Shown here: positions 1-12,203 of the stretch, in pieces
How the letters are laid out: each line of letters starts with the position of its first letter
Position numbering within the stretch: position 1 is the first letter of the stretch
DNA from: a bacterium
GTDB lineage: Bacteria; BMS3Abin14
DNA length: 12,203 bases
Direction of reading: 5' to 3'
Assembly (NCBI GenBank): GCA_029210545.1
Contig: JARGFV010000080.1
Coordinates: 1-12,203, forward strand
The notes under the pieces: model-generated
Told to the model about the DNA's origin: nothing
Databases searched by the model: none
The model's input: the letters and a program-made list of their open reading frames with translations, nothing else
Program-made: the position numbers and the translations under genes

Positions 1-71
1 AGCCCCCGTGAGGGAACCGAAAACCACGCTTTTCGGTTCCCGTTGAGCCAAAGTCTTACCCGGACTTTGGC
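1..71. repeat. Two-stem palindromic repeat, copy 1
   Basis: Stem A is a perfect 12-bp inverted repeat (12-23 with 30-41) around the 6-nt loop CCACGC. A short linker (GTTGA, 42-46) leads to stem B, a perfect 9-bp inverted repeat (47-55 with 63-71). Bases 6-56 are identical over 51 bp to 12149-12199 at the other end of the window, and the unit recurs in diverged form 82 bp downstream. No protein is encoded. It resembles REP-type intergenic palindromes or a structured RNA, but I do not recognise the family. The unit may extend left of the window. Confidence 0.85.
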
Positions 72-82
72 GATATTACAGT

Positions 83-156
83 AGCCTCCGTGAGGGAAGG
101 GGAAACCACGCTTTTCCCTTCCCGTGGAGCGAAAAGTCCCGGATTGGACTTTTTGC
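83..156. repeat. Two-stem palindromic repeat, copy 2 (diverged)
   Basis: This has the same layout as copy 1, shifted by 82 bp. Stem A pairs 94-105 with 112-123 and keeps the identical loop CCACGC (106-111). Stem B pairs 129-139 with 146-156 with one mismatch. Compared with copy 1, two stem-A pairs are swapped from C-G to G-C on both arms (99/118 and 100/117) and one A-T pair becomes G-T (102/115). The changes therefore preserve pairing. The linker is GTGGA instead of GTTGA. Confidence 0.8.
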
Positions 157-323
157 GACTCTATCAATGTTGGTGCTTTCTAATATTTTCTACTCTGTGC
201 AACTCTGTGGAGCGGCCTTCAGCCGGCCGCACTGTGGTTCGTTGATCCTTGCCTTGTTTAAAGGAACTGTTGTTACCCTTTACCTGTGACCTTTGAAAAT
301 GTCCTATTTACAAAGCCTTAATT
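157..323. other. Non-coding stretch with minor repeats
   Basis: No gene is visible. The stretch contains CTCTGTG-type low-complexity sequence (about 193-210) and a small GC hairpin (GCGGCC at 212-217 pairing with GGCCGC at 225-230). The remainder is unremarkable AT-richer spacer running up to the terminator of the minus-strand gene at 378-593. Confidence 0.5.
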
Positions 324-972: not shown

Positions 973-1470
973 GTGTTCGGCCTTGGCGGAGCCCTTGTTT
1001 TCAGTTCTCCCCGGTACCTCATCAGGGTCGTCAACGCTCTCGTCACTGCCAGTCTCGCCGGAACGATCATTTATTGGATCGTTCCGAGTTTAGGGCCCTA
1101 TTTCTATAGTGAGACCGCAGCTCTTTTCGACAGGATGCCTGACAACCCTCTTCTCAAGGAGATGCTTCTTCGCCAACTTCTCGCAACCATGGAATCTCCC
1201 GAGAACTTTCATGTGACCTTCGGCGGCGGGATCGCCGCGTTTCCAAGTCTACACATTACATTCAGCACCATCCTCCTCTTTTTCTTATGGAGCAAACATA
1301 GGATTCTGACCGTACTTCTGCTTTTCCCTTTCTCACAGCTCGTGGTTTCCACGGTCTATCTCGGATGGCACTATGCTTTCGATTCCCTTGGGGGGATAGT
1401 ACTGGCCTGGATAGTAATCACCCTGATCGAGTGTTTGGAGGTATCGAAGGCATCCATGAAGGAAAGCTGA
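973..1470 (+). pseudogene. PAP2-superfamily (AUR1/PAP2_3-like) phosphatase, probably 5'-truncated
   Basis: The 165-residue product keeps the C-terminal half of an integral-membrane PAP2 enzyme. FPSLH (residues 90-94) is the second phosphatase motif, and LGWHYAFDSLGG (about 130-141) is the third, with H133 and D137 as candidate catalytic residues. Hydrophobic segments lie near 15-37, 95-106, 111-128 and 138-153. PAP2_3/AUR1-like proteins normally have a longer N-terminus with additional membrane helices. Here the frame opens at GTG 973, right after an 18-bp palindrome that supplies the upstream stop. No convincing ribosome site exists except GGGGAG inside the palindrome stem. The GC content looks lower (near 50%) than the neighbours. 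I infer a truncated or decaying gene for a lipid-phosphate phosphatase or phosphotransferase. An intact short protein cannot be excluded. Confidence 0.65.
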
Positions 1471-1499
1471 TCGATGCCCTGGCGGGATCAGCTTTCCTT
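1459..1499. repeat. 14-bp inverted repeat joining two convergent gene ends
   Basis: AAGGAAAGCTGATC (1459-1472) and its exact reverse complement (1486-1499) flank a 13-nt spacer. Each arm contains the last codons and TGA stop of one of two convergent genes, so both proteins end in Lys-Glu-Ser. It may serve as a bidirectional 3'-end structure, although it lacks a T-tract. Confidence 0.75.
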
Positions 1500-2603
1500 G
1501 AATGTATCCTCGAAAAACTCTTCCAGCTTCACATCCAGATCGTCGTCCGGATTGCCGGCCGACTGCGGTTCAGGATCCGGCAGCGGCGCGCCATCGCCCT
1601 GGAACCCGGTCATGTCCGGCACGGGGGGAACGTCGAAGGAGTACTCCGCCACCTCCGAAGCATCTCCTTGGCCGGCTGAATCCCCTGCCTGGATGAGCTC
1701 TTCCGGGATGACATCATCGGGACGGACCCCCGCCGGTGACCAGTCAGCCGGGACATCCATGGCGGGAATGCCGGACTGGGCGTCCAGCCTGGCGTCAAAC
1801 CCGAGGTCGGAGGCCATCTCCTGTACGATGGAATCGTCGATGATCCTCTGCCTCATGAGAAACCCCTGGAACAGGGCGTTGTCGCACAGGACGTTGATCT
1901 TCCTGGGGAACCCGTCCGAGTAACGATAAATACGCCTGAGGGCCGTGTCGGTGAAGACGGGGTCCCTGGTGCCGGCGATGGCCATCCGATGCACGACGTA
2001 GGCCTTGGTGGCCTCCTCGGTAAGGGTGGACAGGCGGATCTTCATGGCCACCCGCTGCAGAAGGGGCGGGTCGAGGGCCATGACATCCTCGATCTCGGGC
2101 AGGCCGAAAAAGACGAAAGTGATGAGCTTGTGGGCCGTCACCTCCAGGTTAAGAAGGCCGCGGAACTCTTCCATGAGTTCCCGGGTGTTGAGCATCTGGG
2201 CCTCGTCGATGAGGACCACAGCCTTCTTTCCCATCTCGTGGAGGTGGATGAGCTTGCGGTACAGCTGGCCGATAATCTGGAGCTTTTCCGTGGCGGGGTT
2301 TTCGATACCGAGCTGCTGGGCGATGCGCCTGAGGAGCCACTCCTGGGATATCTCCGAGTGGAGGATGACGAGAAGGGCCGATTCGTAGGCTTCCGAGGGA
2401 AGACCGTCGAGGACCTTCCTCGCCAGGGTTGTCTTGCCGGTGCCGATGTCGCCCACCACAACGGCAAGCCCCTTCATGGTCTCGGCCACGTACATGATCC
2501 GTGTCAGGGCCCTGGCATGCTGGGCGCTATTGTAGTAGAAACGCTCATTCGGGGCGTTGGAAAAGGGCTCTATCTGGAGGCCGTAAAAATCGAGGTAGCT
2601 CAT
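1488..2603 (-). CDS. ExeA/GspA-like AAA ATPase with acidic C-terminal tail
   Basis: The 371-residue protein begins with the signature of the ExeA/GspA ATPase family (YLDFYGLQIEPFSNAP). It has Walker A GDIGTGKTT (residues 51-59), Walker B VVLIDEAQ (129-136) and an AAA-type lid region (about 215-255). ExeA-family ATPases help assemble secretin or envelope machinery, and related proteins occur in exopolysaccharide loci. This one lacks an obvious membrane helix or peptidoglycan-binding domain. Instead residues about 265-371 are acidic, Pro-rich and probably disordered, ending in LEEFFEDTFKES. The ATG at 2603 has AGGAG 5 nt upstream. It lies downstream of the large TPR gene but beyond a terminator, so it probably has its own promoter or depends on read-through. 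A role in pilus or secretion assembly is inference; the ATPase assignment is firm. Confidence 0.85.
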   Translation of the reverse strand: MSYLDFYGLQIEPFSNAPNERFYYNSAQHARALTRIMYVAETMKGLAVVVGDIGTGKTTLARKVLDGLPSEAYESALLVILHSEISQEWLLRRIAQQLGIENPATEKLQIIGQLYRKLIHLHEMGKKAVVLIDEAQMLNTRELMEEFRGLLNLEVTAHKLITFVFFGLPEIEDVMALDPPLLQRVAMKIRLSTLTEEATKAYVVHRMAIAGTRDPVFTDTALRRIYRYSDGFPRKINVLCDNALFQGFLMRQRIIDDSIVQEMASDLGFDARLDAQSGIPAMDVPADWSPAGVRPDDVIPEELIQAGDSAGQGDASEVAEYSFDVPPVPDMTGFQGDGAPLPDPEPQSAGNPDDDLDVKLEEFFEDTFKES

Positions 2604-2710
2604 TTTCTCCTCTAGTCCCGCCCGTGAAGGAGCGGGTTCCGATCAAGTGGTAACCCTTTTTTGAACCTTTATTATTCCTTCAGTCAGTTTCCCGGCGCGG
2701 ACCTCTCGGG

Positions 2711-2757
2711 AAAAATAGCTATAAAACCGCCATGGTGTCCGAATGGCGGTTTTATAG
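2711..2757 (-). terminator. Intrinsic terminator overlapping the TPR gene stop codon
   Basis: A perfect 15-bp stem (CTATAAAACCGCCAT, 2719-2733 with 2743-2757) with a 9-nt loop is followed on the minus strand by five T residues (2715-2711). The stop codon of the 923-residue TPR protein (2752-2754) lies inside the first arm. It would separate transcription of the TPR gene from the ATPase gene downstream. Confidence 0.7.
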
Positions 2758-5523
2758 ATAGGAGATCCTGTCTTTCTTGGGTTTACCGGGATCGTCACCG
2801 GTCTCGCCCGCCGTTTCCCTGGCCATCTCCTCAACCTCCCTGATGAGATCGGAGAGCATGTCGTCCATGCCGCCGTCCAGGGGCATGTCAGCCTCGACTT
2901 CGTCTTCAGCCTCTTCCACAAGGTGGGATTTTACCCTTTCGATAGCCTCGCCGATCCGCTCGAAGGTGGGATCCTTGGCCTGGACCTCCTCGTAGGCGGC
3001 AACAGCCTCGGGCCACGCCTTTTTACGCTCCAGGGTCTCTCCCATCTGGTAGAACAAGCCAGTCCTGGTAGACACTTCCGAGATGTCGATCGCCTTCTGG
3101 ATCGCCTTCACAGCGGAATCCAGATCCTTCTTTTCCACAAAACACATGGCCATCAGGCTGAGGCTGTCCTGGGCAAGGTCAGGGTCCCTGCTGCTGATCT
3201 CGAACTCCCTGAGGGCATCGTCGGAAAGCCCCATGTCCTTGTAGGCGATCCCCAGGTTGTAATGGGTCTCGTACTCCTCGTCTCCAAGAGTCTCAGCGAT
3301 CCCTTTCTTGAACTGGGAAAAGATCTCCTCGAAGGTGATACCGCCGCCGTCTGAAACCGTCTCCGCCGGGGCCTGGAACTCATCGGCAAGCTCCGTCCGC
3401 AGTTCCTCGGCAAGGTCCAGGAAACCTCCGGCGCCTTCTGTTTCCGAGTCCTCGACGATGAGTCTCCCTTTCACCTCACGGGCATCACCAGGCAGCACCC
3501 GTGTACCGGCGGCCGGCACCTTTTGTGCGGGGGCAGCCGGGGATTCGGGCACAGGAGGCGCCCCGGTAACAGGCGGAGCAGATCCTTGCGAAGGGGCCTC
3601 GACCCCTTCAATGGCAGCCGCCGCAGCCGCATGGCCGGGAGAGCGCTTGAGAATCGACTGGTAGATGCGGTGAGCCTCATCCTCGAGACCTTGGGACATG
3701 TAGAAATCGGCTTCCTCCATGTCCTCCGCAAAGGGGTCATGCCCTTCCCTGGCCCCGGGTTCTGAAACCGGCTGTGCTTCCGGAGGTTGAGCGAGGGTTT
3801 CATCAGGGAGTTTGACGGACTCTTCTAACCCGGGGACTTGCCCGGTGGCCGCATCGGCAGGCGCAGGCGCTCCCGAGGCGGCGGCCTCGATCCGTTCAAG
3901 GACCCTTGGGTCGTCCGGGGCCTTGGCCCTGGCGCTTTCAAGGATCTCCATGACCTTATCCGTCAGCCCGTAACGTTCGTAGACCTCGGCCTCGGCGAGA
4001 AGTTCGTCGACGGTCATCTCCTCTTCAGGGGAGGCTTCGGGCTCAAAAGCAGAAACACCCGGTTCCCCTGGAGCGAGGTCCCCGCCGCCTTCAGCGACCA
4101 GTTCCACCTCGTCGTCGAAATCTTCCAGAACGATATCAGGGATGGAATCGATCTCTTCTTCAGAGATCACCTCCACCGACTCGATATCGTCAAACTCAAG
4201 TTCCTGGCCATCATCGAGATCGATGGCCTCGATCTCCTCTTCTTCGCTGATCTCCATCCCCTCTTCGACATCCGTGCCTTCTTCGGAGATCAGTTCCAGA
4301 TCCTCTATCTCGGTCAGTTCTTCAAGTTCCGCTGCCCCGAGCTCCACCGGCGCCTCACCAGGACCCGCGCTGTCAACAGCCGCCGATAGTGCCTCGAGAT
4401 CGCCGGCCTGCACCCTCGCCAGGTACCCCTTGGCCTCCTCGTTGAGAGGATCGAGTTGGCTCACCTTCTCGAAGGCCTTGCAGGCACCCTTCGCATCCCT
4501 GCTCTGTACCAGGGACCTTCCCAGGAGCAGCAGGTTCTTGATCTGTCCTACCCTGTCATTCCTGGCCTCGGCAACGCAAATGAGGCCCTTGATGGCCCTG
4601 ATCTCCCCCGGCACGACCATCATGATCTGCCGGTAGAACGCCTCGGACTCGTCCAACTCCCCGTTGCGCAGGTGTGACTGGGCAACGAAAAGGTACTCCC
4701 TCATGACCCCTTCCAGCTCTCCCGACTTGAGGAACAGCTGCAGCGATTGCGCGATCATCTGTTCGCCGCCGGAATTGTTTCCCAGCTGGAAGTGGATCCG
4801 CCCGAGGAGAAGCGCCATGCGGGGATCGTCGGGCTCCACTGCCAGAATGGCCTCGATCTCCTTCCGGGCCTCCTTGAACTGGCCGCTCTCCAGATAATGG
4901 GCGCACAGCTCCTTGCGAACCGCCGTGTTGTCGGGGTTGAGGCCCGTGATCTTCTCGAAGAGCTGGGAAGCCCGATCGTGGAAACCACGGCGGCTCAAGG
5001 TGGTGGCGGCCTTGGCGAAGGCTTCGGCTGCCTCCTGCTTGCGGCCCTTCCTGGCCAGGGTCTCACCCAGCCGGACCTGGAAACCCAGGTTCTCCGGGTC
5101 CATGTTGACCATGAGCTGCAGGACCTCGATCTGCTTGCCTTCGTCGCTCCTCTTCTCGTAGATCTGGAAAAGATTCTCCAGCTGGGACAGGGCTTCAGCC
5201 TCGAGCCCCTGGCTCTTGTACAGCTCGGCCAGCTTGTCGTAGGTCGACAGCAGCTCGGGATCGAGCCTGAGGATTGTCTTGTAAACGGCAATGGCCTTGG
5301 GGGTGAAATCCTGCTGGATATACCTGGTGGCGACTTTCTCGTAATTTTGAACCGCTTCGGACTTGCGGCCTGCGCGGGCCTGCAGGTCGGCCAGCCTGAG
5401 GGTGAGCCTCTGGTCCCTCGGATCGACCTCCACCAGGTTCTGGAAGGTTTTTATCGCCTTGTCCAGGTTGCCCTTGGAAAGGTGTTTCTGGGCAACCTTG
5501 AGCAGTTTTGCTTTATCAGTCAT
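2752..5523 (-). CDS. Large acidic TPR-repeat protein
   Basis: This 923-residue protein has no signal peptide or membrane segment, so it is predicted to be cytoplasmic. Tetratricopeptide repeats fill residues 1-375 (units of the form KAIKTFQNLVEVDP and KAIAVYKTILRLDP). A very acidic linker follows (about 399-480). Two isolated TPR-like modules (about 505-548 and 602-640) resemble those at the C-terminus of FimV-type proteins, with a Pro/Ala-rich spacer after them. A second TPR block (about 730-870) starts at TFEEIFSQFKKGI, then YNLGIAYKDMGL. The end is acidic with a basic tip. Such proteins act as scaffolds; no enzyme motif is visible. The ATG at 5523 has a weak GGGGA ribosome site. It sits 100 bp after accC and before the ExeA-like ATPase. 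A link to envelope machinery or cell polarity is inference. Confidence 0.85.
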   Translation of the reverse strand: MTDKAKLLKVAQKHLSKGNLDKAIKTFQNLVEVDPRDQRLTLRLADLQARAGRKSEAVQNYEKVATRYIQQDFTPKAIAVYKTILRLDPELLSTYDKLAELYKSQGLEAEALSQLENLFQIYEKRSDEGKQIEVLQLMVNMDPENLGFQVRLGETLARKGRKQEAAEAFAKAATTLSRRGFHDRASQLFEKITGLNPDNTAVRKELCAHYLESGQFKEARKEIEAILAVEPDDPRMALLLGRIHFQLGNNSGGEQMIAQSLQLFLKSGELEGVMREYLFVAQSHLRNGELDESEAFYRQIMMVVPGEIRAIKGLICVAEARNDRVGQIKNLLLLGRSLVQSRDAKGACKAFEKVSQLDPLNEEAKGYLARVQAGDLEALSAAVDSAGPGEAPVELGAAELEELTEIEDLELISEEGTDVEEGMEISEEEEIEAIDLDDGQELEFDDIESVEVISEEEIDSIPDIVLEDFDDEVELVAEGGGDLAPGEPGVSAFEPEASPEEEMTVDELLAEAEVYERYGLTDKVMEILESARAKAPDDPRVLERIEAAASGAPAPADAATGQVPGLEESVKLPDETLAQPPEAQPVSEPGAREGHDPFAEDMEEADFYMSQGLEDEAHRIYQSILKRSPGHAAAAAAIEGVEAPSQGSAPPVTGAPPVPESPAAPAQKVPAAGTRVLPGDAREVKGRLIVEDSETEGAGGFLDLAEELRTELADEFQAPAETVSDGGGITFEEIFSQFKKGIAETLGDEEYETHYNLGIAYKDMGLSDDALREFEISSRDPDLAQDSLSLMAMCFVEKKDLDSAVKAIQKAIDISEVSTRTGLFYQMGETLERKKAWPEAVAAYEEVQAKDPTFERIGEAIERVKSHLVEEAEDEVEADMPLDGGMDDMLSDLIREVEEMARETAGETGDDPGKPKKDRISYL

Positions 5524-5565
5524 TCAAATAATCCCCGACCTCACCGGATAAAAAAATAAAATGAA

Positions 5566-5594
5566 ACGATAACACACATGCAGTTTTCCGTTAA
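5566..5594 (-). promoter_or_regulatory. Possible promoter of the large TPR gene
   Basis: On the minus strand TTAACG (5594-5589), a 17-bp spacer and TATCGT (5571-5566) each match four of six consensus bases. It lies in the 100-bp gap between accC and the TPR gene. An AT-rich T-run (about 5551-5559) follows before the start codon. This is a weak call. Confidence 0.3.
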
Positions 5595-5616
5595 CAGTGA
5601 ACTGTGAACAGTGAAC
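5593..5616. repeat. Short direct repeat AACAGTGAAC
   Basis: The 10-mer AACAGTGAAC occurs at 5593-5602 and again at 5607-5616, immediately downstream of the accC stop codon. It resembles the simple (GTGAACA)n runs seen in intergenic regions of many environmental genomes. No function is apparent. Confidence 0.5.
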
Positions 5617-5623
5617 CAACCCT

Positions 5624-6976
5624 CTATTTCTTCATCGTCTCCATGAAATCGGTCCCGTACTCACCCTTGCGGAACTTCATGGTGGCCAGTATCCGCTGGT
5701 GGAGGGGAAGGGTGGTCTTGATCCCCTCGATGACGAACTCTTCCAGGGCGCGCTGCATCCTTGCCAGGGCCTCTTCACGGTCCCGTCCGTGGGCGATGAG
5801 CTTGGCGATCATGGAATCGTAATGGGGTGTGATATAGTAGTGCTGGAACGCCGCGGAATCCACCCGGATCCCCGGGCCGCCGGGGGCATAATAGAAGGAA
5901 ATGGTACCGGGGTTTGGCCTGTGGTCCACCGGATCTTCCGCGTTGATACGGCACTCGATGGCGTGCCCCTGGATCTTCACGTCCTCCTGTGAAATCCCCA
6001 GCGGGTGCCCGGCACTGATCCGGATCTGCTCCTTGACGAGGTCGATACCTGTCACCATCTCTGTGACCGGGTGCTCTACCTGGATCCGGGTGTTCATCTC
6101 CATGAAGTAGAAGTTCCCCTCGGCATCCAGCAGGAACTCCACCGTCCCGGCGTTGAGATAGCCTGCCTCGCGGGTCAGGGATGTCGCTGCCTCACCCATG
6201 CGGGCCCTCAGCTCGTCGGTCATGGCCGGGGAGGGTGCCTCCTCGATGAGTTTCTGGTATCGCCGCTGGATGCTGCAGTCCCTTTCGCCAAGGTGGACGA
6301 CCTTTCCGAAGCTGTCCGCGAGCACCTGGATCTCCACGTGACGGGGAGACTGGATGAACTTTTCCACGTAGACTTCCGGATCGTTGAACGCCGTACCCGC
6401 CTCGGCCTGGGCCATGGAAAAAGATGTCCTGAAAGAGGCTTCGGAGTGGACGACCCTGATCCCCCTGCCTCCTCCGCCCGAGGCAGCCTTGATGATCACC
6501 GGGAAACCAAGCTGCTTTGCCCCCTCGAGGGCCACTTCAGGGTCGCTCACCCCCTCCACCCCCCCCGGGGGTATGGGGACACCGGCCCTCACGGCGAGGT
6601 TGCGGGCCTGGATCTTGTTCCCCATAAGCCTGATGTGATTCGAACGGGGACCGATAAAGGTGATCCCGCTGGCCTCGCAGACCTCTGCGAATTCAGGGTT
6701 TTCGGCCAGGAAGCCGTACCCCGGGTGGATCGCCTCGCAATCCGACACCTCGGCAGCGCTCACGACCGCCGGGATGTTGAGGTAGCTCTGGATGGGGTTT
6801 GCCGGGCCGATGCAGATACTCTCGTCCGCGAACCGCGTGTGGAGAGCGTCCTTGTCGGCTTCGGAAAACACGGCTACCGTCCTGATGCCCAGTTCCCTGC
6901 AGGCGCGGATCACCCTGAGGGCGATCTCACCCCTGTTGGCGATCAGGATCTTGGAGAAAAGTCTCGACTTGCTCAC
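5624..6976 (-). CDS. accC: Acetyl-CoA carboxylase, biotin carboxylase subunit
   Basis: AccC carries out the ATP- and bicarbonate-dependent carboxylation of the biotin on AccB, the first half-reaction of acetyl-CoA carboxylase, in the cytoplasm. From the GTG at 6976 the protein is 450 residues, close to the 449 of E. coli. It begins [11 protein letters not shown], the conserved start of the family. ATP-grasp features are K163 and the glycine loop ASGGGGRG (165-172), HVEIQVLAD (213-221), and the active-site strand [12 protein letters not shown] (292-303) with E280, E293, N295 and R297. The frame stays open upstream to 7105, but that extension only overlaps accB and is not conserved-looking. GTG overlaps the accB stop by 4 nt (GTGA) and has no clear Shine-Dalgarno, which suggests translational coupling. 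accA and accD are not in the window. Confidence 0.97.
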
Positions 6977-7449
6977 GACAGATCGACGATAAACAGCGGC
7001 TGACCGTACTCGACCGGCTGGGCGTTTTCTACCAGGATCGAAGAGACTTTGCCCGAGACCTCGCACTCGATCTCGTTCATGATCTTCATGGCCTCGACGA
7101 TGCACATCACTGTGCCCTTGCTTACATTGGTGCCGACCTCAACGTAGGGCGGGGATTCCGGGCCCGGGGCCCTGTAGAAGGTCCCCACGATGGGAGAAGT
7201 GACGAGGAACTGGTTCACGCCCACGGCCAGGGTGTCGCCCGCGGCAGCGGGAACATCGCCAGGTGCGGCCTGCGCCGGGCGGGCGGATGCCTCCTGGAAA
7301 GGAAGCTCACGAGTCCTGCCAACCGCCGTTTCCTCCAGGACACCCCCTTTCCTGACCCGGATCCGGGTATCCCCCCTCTGGAGGGTAAAATCCTGGACCC
7401 CGTACCTTTCAACAAGTTTCAGGATCTCCCTGATCTCCTTGATATCCAT
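6973..7449 (-). CDS. accB: Acetyl-CoA carboxylase, biotin carboxyl carrier protein
   Basis: AccB carries the covalently bound biotin that shuttles the carboxyl group from AccC to the carboxyltransferase. The protein is 158 residues. An N-terminal helical domain ([17 protein letters not shown]) is followed by an Ala/Pro-rich linker (about 52-72) and a biotinyl domain (about 82-158). The biotin attachment motif is EAMKIM, with K122 as acceptor. I chose ATG 7449 over the in-frame GTG 7458 because AGGAG (about 7458-7462) lies 8 nt before the ATG but would abut the GTG. That ribosome site overlaps the TAG stop of efp. The 3' end overlaps accC by 4 nt. Confidence 0.95.
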
Positions 7450-7460
7450 CTGCTGCACTC

Positions 7461-8021
7461 CTATCTGACGCGTTCGATATAATCGCCAGTGCGCGTATCG
7501 ATCTTGACGACATCCCCCTCGTTGAGGAAAAGGGGAACGTTGATGACGGCTCCCGTCTCCAGCTTGACCGGTTTGGTGGCGCCGGTGGCCGTATCTCCCT
7601 TGGCGCCGGGCTCAGCCTCTTCAATGACCAGTTCCACGAAGATGGGCAGCTCCACACCCACCGGTTTACCGTTGTAAAATTGGACGTTCACCTCGAGCTG
7701 TTCCTTCAAAAACCCGGTGATGTCACCCAGATCCCCCGAGGTGATGAGGGTCTGATCGTAGGTGCCGGTATCCATGAAGTGAAAACCGCCATCGTCGCTG
7801 TAAAGGAACTGCATGGTCTTCTCTTCAAAATCCGGCCTTTTCAGCTTCTCCCCGGACCTGAACGTCCTGTCCAGCACGTTTCCGGAAATGAGGCTCTTCA
7901 GCTTCGTTCGTACGAACGCCCCTCCCTTGCCCGGCTTGACGTGCTGGAACTCCACGATAATGTACGGTTCCCCGTCCATCTCGACCTTCATACCCCTTTT
8001 GAACTGATTGGTGCTGATCAA
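7461..8021 (-). CDS. efp: Translation elongation factor P
   Basis: EF-P binds the ribosome between the P and E sites and rescues stalling at consecutive prolines. The 186-residue protein has the family's three-domain length, opens with [13 protein letters not shown], and shows the domain-I loop KPGKGGAF, in which K32 is the lysine that is modified in many bacteria. No modification enzyme (epmA, epmB) is encoded in the window. The start is TTG at 8021, matching the usual N-terminus (MISTNQF). It is supported by a strong GAGGAGGAG 5 nt upstream and overlaps the aroQ stop by 4 nt (TTGA). The Pro-rich stretches in the two TPR proteins nearby are possible EF-P-sensitive targets, which is inference. 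Confidence 0.96.
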
Positions 8022-8488
8022 GACAACTCCTCCTCTGAGCCGGGACGGTCAGCGGCCAGGAGGTCCAGGGCCCCAAGGAGGGCTAACCGGTACCCCACAG
8101 GCCCGAACCCCATGACGATGCCGGAGGCGACGTCCGAAACGAGGGAACGGCTGCGGAATTCCTCCCTGGCATGGATGTTTGAAATATGGATCTCGAAAAA
8201 AGGCAGTCCCGCCGCTAACAGGGCATCGCGGATCGCCACGCTGGTGTGCGTAAAGGCGGCAGGGTTGATGACCAGCGCACGAAAACCGGCCCCGGGAGCC
8301 CGCTGGATCCGTTCGACGATCTCACCTTCGTGGTTGGACTGGAAAGTCTCCACATGGACCCCATGCCCGCGCCCGAAATCGACGAGGCCGGAATCGATCT
8401 CCTCCAGCGTCATGACCCCGTAATGATCCGTTTCCCGGCTTCCGAGAAGGTTAAGGTTGGGGCCGTGGATAACGAGGATACGTGTCAT
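8018..8488 (-). CDS. aroQ: Type II 3-dehydroquinate dehydratase
   Basis: AroQ converts 3-dehydroquinate to 3-dehydroshikimate (shikimate pathway step 3) as a dodecameric cytoplasmic enzyme. The 156-residue protein has the family motifs: GPNLNLLG (9-16), the catalytic Tyr 23 in the flexible lid loop, FQSNHEGEIV (49-58), INPAAFTHTSVAIRDAL (74-90) and EIHISNIHAREEFR (99-112) with His 101 as general acid. The usual Gly-Tyr in the third motif is Ala-Phe here, a tolerated variant. The ATG overlaps the stop of the Roadblock gene by 4 nt (ATGA), and AAGGA lies 6 nt upstream. The last codons (SEEELS) double as the ribosome site of efp. Its pathway partner aroB lies upstream at 10681-11772. Confidence 0.97.
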   Translation of the reverse strand: MTRILVIHGPNLNLLGSRETDHYGVMTLEEIDSGLVDFGRGHGVHVETFQSNHEGEIVERIQRAPGAGFRALVINPAAFTHTSVAIRDALLAAGLPFFEIHISNIHAREEFRSRSLVSDVASGIVMGFGPVGYRLALLGALDLLAADRPGSEEELS

Positions 8489-8844
8489 GTAAATTCCTTG
8501 ATGAGGCGGGGAGCAGCCAGTTTCATCAGGTATCTTGCTTTCCCGCGGTTACCATCCGGGCCGAGGACCACAGCGATAAAATATTCGTCTGTGACCAGGC
8601 GCAGGATGAACGTGCTGTTCCGGGTGCTGATGAACACCTCCTCAACCTGACCGGCCGAAAGGGAGACGGAAGCTTTCTGTATGCTCTTGATGGCTGATGC
8701 GTACTCGATACCCACCGTCTGGATATTGCACGATTCGTCCACGAGATGCTCGCCAATGGCGATACCGTCCATCCCCATGATGACGGCGCCCATGAGCCCG
8801 TCGGACCGCTGTGCTATATCCGTCAGTATTTCGTCAAAGATCAT
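8485..8844 (-). CDS. Roadblock/LC7-domain protein (MglB-like)
   Basis: From ATG 8844 this is a 119-residue single-domain protein with the Roadblock/LC7 fold pattern: an N-terminal helix (IFDEILTDIAQRSDG), the strand pair GAVIMGMDGIAIGEHL, a long central helix (YASAIKSIQKASVSL) and later strands VEEVFISTRNSTFILRLV and YFIAVVLGPDGNRGKARYLM. Such proteins dimerise and regulate small Ras-like GTPases; MglB acts on MglA in Myxococcus polarity. No MglA-like GTPase is visible in the window. The frame is open to 8877, but ATG 8844 overlaps the upstream TPR gene's stop by 4 nt (ATGA) and has AAAGGATG upstream, so it is preferred. The tight coupling to the TPR gene suggests a functional pair. The partner and process are unknown. 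Confidence 0.85.
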   Translation of the reverse strand: MIFDEILTDIAQRSDGLMGAVIMGMDGIAIGEHLVDESCNIQTVGIEYASAIKSIQKASVSLSAGQVEEVFISTRNSTFILRLVTDEYFIAVVLGPDGNRGKARYLMKLAAPRLIKEFT

Positions 8845-10376
8845 TTCTGTTTCATCCTTTCCGCATTCTCGAGCCACCGCCCCAGGGTCTCGCTCATCTT
8901 GTTTCCAGGGGCAGCCGCCTCCCTGGCGGCCATCGGCTCCGTTACAGGCGCAGGTGCCGTCGCGGCCACCGGTGCGGCGGCCGGCTCCGGAACCCCTGGG
9001 ACCGCATCTGAGACCAGTTGAGCCTGCGGGGGAGCAGGGGGGGGATGAATTACAGTCACAGTCTCCGTCTCAGTCACGGGCTGAGTGACGGTCACAGGCT
9101 TTTCGATGAACGGTGGGGGCTGAACTGCAGGCTGCTCCTCCATCATCTCTTCCAGTGCCGAGATCTTCAGCTCGATGACCTCATCCCCCGGCCTTTCCTG
9201 GAGGATCTGCCTGTAGATCTCCAGTGCCTTGTCCGTAAGTCCCTGTTGAGCGTAAAGGTCCGCGAGGGTCTCCGTCGAGATGGCGCCGCCGGTCGCTGAA
9301 GCGTCCAGTGAGGGCGGCGACTGTGGGACCGGCTCGGACGTTTGCCGCGCCAGATCCAGATCCAGGGCCGGTTCCTGTTCCGGCTCCCGGAAGATCATTG
9401 CCGGCTCGGGAATCGAGAGGAGGTCGGGGGCCGGAGGCGCCGGCCGGGTCTCCATAACAGTCTCGTTCACCGTCTCAGTCTCCGTCACAGAAACGATCTC
9501 GTCGGCATCAGGTGGCGGCTGAACTGATGACGGGGCTTCGGGTACCGTCCCGGGGATCACCTCTTCAGCCAGACTGGCCTCGGCCAGATTTTCTCCCTCC
9601 TCCATGAAGGCGGCGATCTGGGGATCGAACTGATCGATGTCGTCCACATCGTCCACCTGGAAAACTCCGCCCTCCTCCTCAATCAGGTCAACATCAATCT
9701 CGTCGACATCGTCCTCGGGAACGTCAATGACAGCCTCATCCGCTATCATTGGACCTTCAGCGACGGGGGTTTTAACGACAGTTACCGGGCGGACGGCAAC
9801 CGGGTCCGTGGTGACGTCCTGGCCTTCCGGGGAGAAAGAGAAGGTCTCCTCGGTCGGCAGGGGGTCGAGTTCGACGCCGTCTACCGTAGTGGGCTTTTGC
9901 TCGTAGGTGACAAGGTGTCCTTCTCCATCCCCCCTGCCCGATCCCGCCTCGAACTCCATCTTCCTGGGAGGCTCCGCCTTCTTCTTCATCTCCTCCAGGA
10001 TCAGGGCCACTTCCTGATCTTCGGGACTGAGAAAGTTGGCTGCCTCCAGAGCCCGAAGCGCTCCCTGGATGTCTCCCTTGTCCCTGAGAGCCTTACCCAG
10101 GAACTTTTGCCCCAGGTAGTTTTCAGGGCTGTCGGCTACGGTCTTCCGAAGGACATCCACCGCGGGGTCAAGTTCCCGGCTCTCGTAGAGGGCTCTGCCC
10201 AGAACGAGCAGACCGCCGCTGTAACCCGGGTGGACTTCCAGTCCCGCTCTTGCGGTCCGGATGGCGTCATCCAGGCGTCCCGCCTTTCGGTAGGCTTCAG
10301 CCAGAGGGGCAAACGCCCTGGATTCAGGGTCATCGGCCAGCATCCGTTCGTATCGCTGAATATCATCTTCGCTCAT
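8841..10376 (-). CDS. TPR protein with long acidic Pro/Val/Thr-rich linker
   Basis: The protein has 511 residues and no signal peptide or membrane helix. N-terminal tetratricopeptide repeats cover about residues 5-130 (ESRAFAPLAEAYRKAGRLDDAI; GYSGGLLVLGRALYESREL). A long acidic and Pro-rich segment follows (about 135-365), with runs such as DDVDEIDVDLIEEE. One isolated TPR module (368-405, TLADLYAQQGLTDKALEIY) closely resembles modules in the 923-residue protein. Two VTETETV linkers flank it. The chain ends in a short amphipathic helix (SETLGRWLENAERMKQK). The ATG at 10376 has GGAGG 6 nt upstream. It is the first gene of the operon and overlaps the Roadblock gene by 4 nt. A scaffold role with the Roadblock protein is inferred from coupling only. 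Confidence 0.8.
   Translation of the reverse strand: MSEDDIQRYERMLADDPESRAFAPLAEAYRKAGRLDDAIRTARAGLEVHPGYSGGLLVLGRALYESRELDPAVDVLRKTVADSPENYLGQKFLGKALRDKGDIQGALRALEAANFLSPEDQEVALILEEMKKKAEPPRKMEFEAGSGRGDGEGHLVTYEQKPTTVDGVELDPLPTEETFSFSPEGQDVTTDPVAVRPVTVVKTPVAEGPMIADEAVIDVPEDDVDEIDVDLIEEEGGVFQVDDVDDIDQFDPQIAAFMEEGENLAEASLAEEVIPGTVPEAPSSVQPPPDADEIVSVTETETVNETVMETRPAPPAPDLLSIPEPAMIFREPEQEPALDLDLARQTSEPVPQSPPSLDASATGGAISTETLADLYAQQGLTDKALEIYRQILQERPGDEVIELKISALEEMMEEQPAVQPPPFIEKPVTVTQPVTETETVTVIHPPPAPPQAQLVSDAVPGVPEPAAAPVAATAPAPVTEPMAAREAAAPGNKMSETLGRWLENAERMKQK
9030..9098 (-). repeat. Val/Thr/Glu/Pro linker repeat, copy 2 (in the TPR gene)
   Basis: This encodes residues 427-449 of the 511-residue TPR protein: VTETETVTV followed by a proline cluster (PPPAPP). 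A related segment lies at 9426-9494. The DNA is correspondingly repetitive (GTCTCAGTCACG-like units). It probably forms an extended linker on the C-terminal side of the isolated TPR module. Confidence 0.5.
9426..9494 (-). repeat. Val/Thr/Glu/Pro linker repeat, copy 1 (in the TPR gene)
   Basis: This encodes residues 295-317 of the TPR protein: VSVTETETVNETV and then RPAPPAP. It parallels 9030-9098 in both the VTETETV core and the proline cluster that follows. The two copies flank the isolated TPR module at residues 368-405. Confidence 0.5.
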
Positions 10377-10474
10377 GGCAGACCTCCCCCTCCTGTACTC
10401 TCACGGCATTACCCGATTGGGAATAAAAATTAAAAATTGATGACTTCGCAAAAAATCTCAATGGTATTCTTTTG

Positions 10475-10503
10475 ATGCTATGGGAATTGACGTATCAAGT
10501 CAA
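10475..10503 (-). promoter_or_regulatory. Candidate sigma-70 promoter of the TPR-Roadblock-aroQ-efp-accBC operon
   Basis: On the minus strand TTGACT (10503-10498), a 17-bp spacer and TAGCAT (10480-10475) match five and four of six consensus bases. Transcription would begin near 10467 and leave a leader of about 90 nt before the ATG at 10376. An 11-bp inverted repeat lies immediately upstream (10506-10552) and could bind a regulator. Confidence 0.45.
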
Positions 10504-10587
10504 TCACCCGAAATCCACTGGAACACAATTCATCCCCCGGCGGATTTCGGGTCCGGGAACAGGAAGAGGAAGAGGAAGGCGGAATGT

Positions 10588-10620
10588 GGATCCTCCTTCG
10601 CTAAAGCTATGGAGGACAAG
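10588..10620. repeat. Dispersed-type intergenic repeat (TTCGCTAAAGCTATGGAGGA)
   Basis: TCCTCC (10591-10596) pairs with GGAGGA (10611-10616) around a loop TTCGCTAAAGCTAT. From memory, very similar sequences recur in intergenic regions of many environmental bacterial genomes and give spurious peptides of the form SFAKAxED. Only one copy is in this window, so repeat status is knowledge-based, not shown here. Confidence 0.35.
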
Positions 10621-10680
10621 AGGTGGAAGAGACCGTTTGAACCTTGTCTTTCTTCCCTATTCCCTGCCCCCTACTCCCTG

Positions 10681-11772
10681 TCATTTCTCCTCCTGCCAGT
10701 CTTTTTTCCACTCCTTGAGCGCTCTTAACAAAGCTGCCGGATCTTCCAGCGGGACGATCCGGTGCTGACCGATCCCGCTGACGAGGACAGCATGCACGGA
10801 ACTGCCCACGCTTTTTTTATCTCTGCTCAGGTACAATGCTGCCTCATCGGGTATCGTTACTTCAGGAGTGGGGATACGGCGAAGGAGGGCGGAGGCCCTC
10901 GCATACTGCTCCTCAGGCAGTGAACACAGGTCGACCGAAAGCCGCAGGGCGGCGCCCATTCCCAGAAGAACCGCTTCGCCGTGACGCATGACCCCGAAAC
11001 CCAGTGAAGCCTCGATGACATGGGCCAGGGTGTGTCCGAAGTTCAGCACCCTCCTGAGACCCGTTTCCCTCTCGTCCAGCTCGACAACTTCCGCTTTGCG
11101 GGCGCAGGCAGCCGCGACAATGCGGGCCACATCCAGTCCTCCGCCAGGGGAAAGGTCGTCAACCGACTCCATGTAGCGGAAAAGCTCCTCGTCAAGCGCG
11201 ATGGCGATCTTGACCACTTCAGCCAGCCCTGAGTCCCAGTCCCGGGTCTCGAGGGTGGAAAGGCACGGAGTCTCGGCGAACACGGCCTCGGGCTGGTAGA
11301 AGGTACCCACGAGGTTCTTCCCCTCCGGGATGTTGATCCCGGTCTTGCCCCCGACGCTGCTGTCCACCATGGCGAGAAGTGTCGTGGGCATCTGCACGAA
11401 ACGGACACCCCGCAGGTACACCGACGCCGCGAAACCCGCCAGGTCCCCCACGACACCTCCCCCGAGGGCAAGGACAAGGGACCCTCTGTCCATGTCGGAA
11501 GCGGCCATGGTCCGGCACAGCGCCTCGACCTTCTCAAAGGACTTGCTTGGCTCACCTTCAGGGACGACGTACCGCAGGACCCTGACGCCTCCGCGCACCA
11601 GCATCCCGTGAACAGTCTCCCCGTAAAGGGAATCCACACGCTCATCGGTGACCATGATCACGCCGGTTGGAAGCGAGGCTGCCAGATGAGGAACCAGACC
11701 GTCCCAACTCCCGGGTCCGATCTGGATGGAATAGGACCTGTCATCGAGACCGACATTTACAATCTGGACCAT
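10681..11772 (-). CDS. aroB: 3-dehydroquinate synthase
   Basis: AroB uses NAD+ and a divalent metal (Zn or Co) to cyclise DAHP to 3-dehydroquinate, shikimate pathway step 2, in the cytoplasm. The 363-residue protein matches E. coli AroB in length. It shows the NAD-binding GGGVVGDLAGF (104-114) and the substrate loop SSVGGKTGIN (138-147). The metal ligands are E185 (AEVVK), H247 (NFGHTLAH) and H264 (MRHGEAV). The last residues (KEWKKDWQEEK) are charged and species-specific. The ATG at 11772 has AGGAGG 8 nt upstream. It reads toward the operon containing aroQ, 304 bp away, and may be transcribed separately. aroK, often next to aroB, is absent. Confidence 0.97.
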   Translation of the reverse strand: MVQIVNVGLDDRSYSIQIGPGSWDGLVPHLAASLPTGVIMVTDERVDSLYGETVHGMLVRGGVRVLRYVVPEGEPSKSFEKVEALCRTMAASDMDRGSLVLALGGGVVGDLAGFAASVYLRGVRFVQMPTTLLAMVDSSVGGKTGINIPEGKNLVGTFYQPEAVFAETPCLSTLETRDWDSGLAEVVKIAIALDEELFRYMESVDDLSPGGGLDVARIVAAACARKAEVVELDERETGLRRVLNFGHTLAHVIEASLGFGVMRHGEAVLLGMGAALRLSVDLCSLPEEQYARASALLRRIPTPEVTIPDEAALYLSRDKKSVGSSVHAVLVSGIGQHRIVPLEDPAALLRALKEWKKDWQEEK

Positions 11773-11866: not shown

Positions 11867-11990
11867 CAGCGGTCTGCCGACGGTGCTCTTTCACAAATCC
11901 TTGGATTTGGCGCCGGGTGCCCTGGTTCGTGAATACCCGGTCCTGCAATTCAAACTGTCTGAAGTCCTGACCCTCTTTATAAGCTGTAAA

Positions 11991-12019
11991 GTTGATGGAC
12001 TCGCCAAAAGTCCATCAAC
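11991..12019. repeat. 11-bp perfect hairpin with GTTGATGGACT arms
   Basis: GTTGATGGACT (11991-12001) pairs exactly with 12009-12019 around the loop CGCCAAA. Its loop plus right arm (CGCCAAAAGTCC) resembles stem B of the terminal repeats (GCGAAAAGTCC at 129-139), which suggests a related element. No T-run is adjacent. Confidence 0.7.
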
Positions 12020-12037
12020 GCGCCCCGCGCGGGGCGC
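12020..12037. repeat. 18-bp perfect GC palindrome
   Basis: GCGCCCCGCGCGGGGCGC is its own reverse complement (9-bp arms without a loop) and directly abuts the hairpin at 11991-12019. It could be a dyad protein-binding site or part of a compound palindromic element. Confidence 0.65.
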
Positions 12038-12052
12038 CCAAATCAATGGCAA

Positions 12053-12128
12053 GCCGCTCCTGGGAGAGGCGCCCGGATCGATGACCCGTGAAAACTGCCG
12101 CGCCTGGGAGCGGCGCCCGGATCGAATG
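12053..12128. repeat. Tandem 31/32-bp direct repeat, each copy a hairpin
   Basis: Copies at 12053-12083 and 12097-12128 (period 44 bp) differ by two substitutions and one inserted A. Each starts GCCGC(T/G)CCTGGGAG and ends GGCGCCCGGATCG. Within each copy GCCGCTCC-type and GGAGCGGC-type arms pair with one mismatch around TG. The sequence GTGAAAACT lies between the two copies. Confidence 0.7.
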
Positions 12129-12148
12129 CCAATGGCTGTGTGTTCGAT

Positions 12149-12203
12149 CCGTGAGGGAACCGAAAACCACGCTTTTCGGTTCCCGTTGAGCCAAAGTCTC
12201 GCA
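12149..12203. repeat. Two-stem palindromic repeat, copy 3 (cut by window end)
   Basis: The first 51 bases (12149-12199) are identical to 6-56. Stem A pairs 12155-12166 with 12173-12184 around the loop CCACGC, and the linker GTTGA and left arm of stem B follow. The right arm of stem B lies outside the window. Confidence 0.85.

Follow-up and report, generated by a model that had tools for sequence, protein, structure and literature searches.

The start of this contig carries two copies of an 82-bp unit whose stems differ by paired substitutions, which raises the question of what kind of element keeps its folded form while its sequence drifts. The window analyzed here is the whole stretch of 12,203 nucleotides, that is, contig C80 in a draft genome of 2.72 Mb and 241 contigs. 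The answer that we consider highly probable is a composite MITE, moved in trans by a DDE transposase, whose plus-strand hairpin fold is kept. The mobile nature of the repeat family is an addition to the first-pass annotation of this DNA, which had described the folded repeats.

A modular element family at the edges of the contig

Read directly, window positions 1-165 hold two 82-bp units, each with a hairpin A and a hairpin B, in the layout and with the period that had been reported. Hairpin A has a 12-bp stem and a 6-nt loop in both: the stem of unit 1 lies at 12-23/30-41 (GGGAACCGAAAA / TTTTCGGTTCCC) around the loop CCACGC at 24-29, and unit 2 repeats this frame at +82, with its stem at 94-105/112-123. 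The paired swaps reported earlier are present, C17-G36 becoming G99-C118 and C18-G35 becoming G100-C117, as is the change from A20-T33 to G102-T115, the latter a wobble pair, and stem B is altered on both arms (GCCAAAGTC/GACTTTGGC in unit 1 versus GCGAAAAGTCC/GGACTTTTTGC in unit 2). The CCACGC loop had been called invariant, a description that the family does not bear out, as CGACGC, CCCCGC, CCGCGC, TGACAC and other loops also occur. Folding of window 1-178 yields -77.1 kcal/mol, compared with -52.8 ± 4.3 for shuffles (z -5.7).

What lies at positions 1-165 is a fragment, the right-hand portion of a composite element whose remainder extends beyond the contig start. A third copy at 12149-12199, overlooked in the first reading, belongs to another element, which is cut by the contig end and comprises the left end, GC modules, hairpin A and the start of hairpin B; its terminal repeat forms a left hairpin (11992-12018) together with the sequence to its right. 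The features are as follows.

1-165, plus strand: composite hairpin MITE, right part (A1-B1, A2-B2/right end); covariance-model match at 39-167
12-41, plus strand: hairpin A copy 1, 12-bp stem, loop CCACGC
47-71, plus strand: hairpin B copy 1, arms GCCAAAGTC (47-55) and GACTTTGGC (63-71)
94-123, plus strand: hairpin A copy 2, with compensatory changes relative to copy 1
129-156, plus strand: right-terminal hairpin (stem B of unit 2), arms GCGAAAAGTCC (129-139) and GGACTTTTTGC (146-156)
147-165, minus strand: right terminal inverted repeat, reverse complement GATAGAGTCGCAAAAAGTC
166-171, no strand: AATGTT, the presumed right-hand copy of the duplicated 6-bp target (consensus AANNTT; the left copy would lie off the contig)
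10433-10457, plus strand: solo decayed left end AAAATTGATGACTTCGCAAAAAATC, between a TPR gene and aroB, a probable MITE remnant
11988-11993, no strand: putative left target copy of the second element, AAAGTT
11994-12203, plus strand: second composite element, left part, truncated by the contig end; covariance-model match at 12097-12203
11994-12012, plus strand: left terminal inverted repeat of the second element, GATGGACTCGCCAAAAGTC

Loci fetched from the own genome and read out follow one order: the hairpin of the left end is followed by one to four GC-rich modules and then by one to five tandem 82-bp A/B units, and the hairpin of the right end comes last. Architectures span LMAR to LMMMAAAAAR, and lengths range from 46 to about 570 bp (45 to 564 bp as measured between the termini). 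The typical form of 158 bp begins with the left end TTGATGACTTCGCAAAAAGTCATCAA and the GC hairpin GCGCCCCGCGCGGGGCGC, continues through the hairpin AATCAATGAC...GTCATTGATT and hairpin A (GGAAAGGGAAAA...TTTTCCCTTTCC), and closes with the hairpin CGAAAAGTCC...GGACTTTTTGCG and the terminus GACCCTGTCAA; longer forms have extra GC modules and A/B units, and minimal forms of about 46 bp consist of the two ends alone. The elements are thus short and built of hairpins, lie far below the length of a transposase and have no transposase gene, and they bear the terminal inverted repeats GAYRRNNTCGCAAAAAGTC at both ends. As in BOX-type elements, end modules flank a variable count of internal modules.

The search of the host genome and its relatives with a covariance model, which the first-pass annotation had proposed as a check, returned at least 150 matches in the own genome (model R1); a simple hairpin-A pattern gave 104 (58 forward, 46 reverse), and its reversed control none. 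The class was represented by 12 genomes that together form one family, and with the same model 11 of them show copies; none of 181 genomes of other families, scored with stricter filters, has any. The MAG SZUA-204 (QIEJ01000245.1) is one relative. One single-contig family genome (G001) is without any copy, and 11 relatives have copies; its absence could reflect either loss or a line that was never invaded. The exact left-end pattern had no match in viral contigs, nor did the consensus element in a distant BLAST against plasmids and phages, and in the papers searched the terminal-repeat string turned up in two unrelated works only, outside any bacterial context. The window has no Rfam 15 match that reaches the gathering score, and an element searched at E up to 1 gave only sub-threshold chance matches; no tRNA or tmRNA was found. 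The family is a modular, non-coding MITE with at least 150 copies here, mostly between genes, and it is new, from an under-studied class.

Between the two partial elements, the genes at 973-11772 are mostly on the minus strand and include aroB, a TPR protein, a roadblock-like protein, aroQ (type II), efp, a biotin carboxyl carrier, a biotin carboxylase, a large TPR protein and an AAA ATPase, with a PAP2-family gene on the plus strand. Upstream of the PAP2-family gene lies a perfect 20-bp inverted repeat with a 2-nt loop (926-967; AGTGAACCGCTCCCCGGCCT), and a few similar hairpins occur in other contigs of the genome. Hairpins around GACCYGAAATCCGC / GCGGATTTCRGGTC at 648-691 and 10503-10553, together with similar ACCCGAAATCCGC stretches elsewhere in the genome, suggest a second dispersed repeat family.

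Covariation, strand asymmetry and genomic placement

When 52 copies are aligned with plain MAFFT (A2) and read with the named structure, 20 of 42 pairs are changed on both sides, compared with 7.4 ± 1.6 in shuffles; at most one of 500 shuffles (0 or 1) reaches the observed measures, and sliding the pairing partners abolishes the pairing. Larger alignments fitted to the covariance model, and hence biased towards it, show two-sided changes at 35 of 42 pairs in the relatives (263 cells versus 62 ± 6 shuffled) and at 40 of 42 in the own genome (418 versus 87 ± 8), with none of 500 shuffles reaching any observed measure. A sequence-anchored test that makes no use of the covariance model and concerns hairpin A alone, located by its outside neighbors, finds 811 of 828 cells paired, versus 747 ± 5 with the arms shuffled. 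The first-pass annotation had claimed selection on the folded form and had set, as the outcome that would count against it, a lack of covariation among genome-wide copies; copies covary strongly both genome-wide and class-wide, and selection on the fold is supported.

The intermediates of these changes are informative as to the strand. Steps between nearest copies pass through G-U 23 times versus A-C once in the relatives, and 23 times versus 6 in the own genome, a result that depends in part on the model-fitted alignments and whose counts, like those of covariation, do not represent independent events since the copies share ancestry. Per column, stems have undergone recent changes several times less often than loops. 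In the anchored hairpin A, one-sided changes comprise 26 G-U and 6 A-C (25 and 6 in a repeat run, p ~9e-4); counted by distinct position and type, the figures of 9 and 6 do not differ significantly. Because G-U and A-C mirror each other across strands, a symmetric cruciform predicts equal steps, and the excess of G-U on the plus strand therefore points to selection on one strand, as RNA or single-stranded DNA, the two forms that had been suggested from the sequence of the window. For this new MITE family the evidence for selection on the fold is unusually strong, with one strand probably being its object.

With respect to genomic context, a simple ORF-based gene map places 40 of the 62 elements scored (65%) between genes, compared with 7% of random positions, and a further 7 partly so; the flanking genes have no clearly preferred orientation. 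This is consistent with insertions that land in AT-rich gaps and are tolerated in them, and it speaks against the element serving as a terminator or riboswitch on one particular side of genes. Two species of one genus allow orthologous sites to be compared: at two such sites G004 has a full copy and G009 a short remnant, and at a third the element of G004 faces a probable empty site in G009, at low identity.

These observations bear on a functional RNA, such as a regulator, an mRNA stabilizer or an RNase processing site, that would be spread by transposition, kept by the host and selected as RNA at many sites. Strong covariation, the one-strand excess of G-U over A-C, recent changes that are several times rarer per column in stems than in loops, and retention across nearly the whole class are what such an RNA would show; the indifference to neighboring gene orientation, the varying number of modules, the remnants and losses at orthologous sites and the lack of an Rfam match do not agree with it, and we regard this explanation as rather unlikely.

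Two-sided changes could also result from nothing more than the correction of palindromes by template switching, a caveat to any claim of selection. Covariation would then arise without selection, from replication template switching between the arms combined with recombination of module variants among copies, and it is true that module variants are common to several loci and that hybrid hairpins with mismatched arms occur (e.g., GGGAACCG...CCCTTTCC). Such a process should, however, treat G-T and A-C alike on both strands, whereas G-U steps exceed A-C, and intermediate single changes are common; we accordingly give it a small likelihood.

Target duplications and a candidate mobilizing transposase

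Evidence for mobility comes from the flanks. In a comparison of 62 paired ends, the flanking 6-mers of the own genome agree at 231 positions, versus 173.5 ± 5.8 matches for shuffled pairings, and in the relatives there are 58 matches versus 44.4 ± 2.4. An excess of this kind is not seen with flanks of 4, 5 or 8 bp, and with 7 bp it is small. The elements are thus bordered, as expected of a MITE, by a 6-bp target duplication with the consensus AANNTT.

A search for a partner with the DDE_Tnp_1 profile across the 12 family genomes led to an IS at G000:C1:15778-17292, with a reading frame of 531 aa, which directly adjoins a MITE copy. Its termini are GATGGACCCGCAATTAGTC / GACGGCATCGCAAAAAGTA, and its borders read TTGATGGACCCGCAATTAGTC and TTGACGGCATCGCAAAAAGTA, identical to the MITE terminus, so that an IS with matching ends is present in the same genome. 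The frame contains DUF772 and DDE_Tnp_1, both above the Pfam cut-offs, and scores 116.5 bits with NCBIfam NF033551 (IS1182), below the cut-off of 270; judged by these profiles, the transposase is of the DDE type and distantly IS1182-like. The IS has one copy in the own genome, whose own target duplication is imperfect (AACCTT / AATATT), and fragments only in three relatives, of which that in G009 retains one end; genomes that yielded no IS copy are also rich in the MITE. This IS is likely the mobilizer of the MITE, and since the relatives hold IS fragments only, its action in trans is what we infer from the matching ends. Another candidate, a 486-aa DDE transposase of G003 (L114), adjoins a copy as well; it was set aside, as matching ends belonging to it were not found.

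An origin from IS200/IS605-type or REP-associated transposases, proposed in the first-pass annotation, does not fit these findings. It would have palindromes moved by a Y1 (HUH) transposase that recognizes hairpins in single-stranded DNA, and the hairpins, the strand asymmetry, the intergenic placement and the occurrence of Y1 genes in the own genome (2) and in 8 of the 12 family genomes are all in keeping with it. Y1 transposition, however, makes no target duplication, whereas clear 6-bp duplications are seen here; the presence of Y1 genes does not go with that of the repeat, as G006, G007, G010 and G011 combine many copies with the absence of any Y1 match and G001, with two Y1 genes, lacks the repeat; and the IS with matching ends is of the DDE type. 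We consider this origin very improbable. The Y1-like genes of the own genome lie at G000:C27:11754-12113 (L128) and G000:C150:1874-2200 (L136), and a MITE copy lies about 0.8 kb from the latter without flanking it. Chance or an assembly artefact, which might be suspected given that both window copies sit at contig ends, where repeats break assemblies, is refuted by internal copies in many contigs of the own genome and in single-contig relatives such as G008 and G002, and its probability is negligible.

We therefore return to a composite MITE moved in trans, for which the following course can be proposed. A DDE transposase, likely encoded by the IS at contig C1, would cut at the inverted termini GAYRRNNTCGCAAAAAGTC, and the excised element would join AANNTT sites, with 6 bp being duplicated. 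The copies that spread, or that the host tolerates, would be those whose plus strand folds into a row of hairpins, as RNA or single-stranded DNA. Most likely, the fold would be kept through compact read-through transcripts or through resistance to loss, rather than through a dedicated RNA function.

A bolder suggestion, which we hold to be doubtful, is that a class-wide transposon spreads a selected multi-hairpin plus strand (RNA or single-stranded DNA) that is useful to the element or the host. If so, the spread RNA structure could, for example, shield or process the mRNAs it enters, and the tandem hairpin units would be dosage modules. The family accounts for abundant repeats at which assemblies of this lineage break, and its hundreds of paralogous copies make covariation and the asymmetry of G-U and A-C measurable, so that selection on the folding of a MITE, and on its strand, which is usually assumed, becomes testable.

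Comparison with known repeat families

REP/BIME sequences with TnpA-REP are likewise dispersed intergenic palindromes, but their mobilization leaves no target duplication; the family described here has one of 6 bp, and its distribution does not match that of Y1 genes. The Correia elements of Neisseria, whose transcripts can be cleaved by RNase III, and the ERIC elements, whose transcripts can be influenced via an RNase E site (PMC10969869), are similar to it as structured intergenic MITEs; they are not modular arrays. The Chunjie MITE of Geobacter uraniireducens, as summarized in a review, measures 178-235 bp and occurs, mostly between genes, in 38 copies with a further 57 partial copies (PMC10969869, citing Chen et al. 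2008). Compared by description, it shares the variable size and the mostly intergenic placement, while a modular hairpin array does not feature in the review's account of it (PMC10969869).

The closest known analogue, in terms of design, appears to be the BOX elements of Streptococcus pneumoniae, a modular MITE (boxA-boxBn-boxC) of 67-637 bp with more than 100 copies (PMC3049150). The likeness, which is one of design, lies in end modules with variable internal tandem modules, more than 100 copies, similar sizes, a location mainly between genes, predicted hairpins and termini that resemble a resident IS. In contrast to BOX, the family described here has GC-rich hairpin modules, a 6-bp AANNTT target and a span that is nearly class-wide, and its two-sided covariation and strand asymmetry have been measured.
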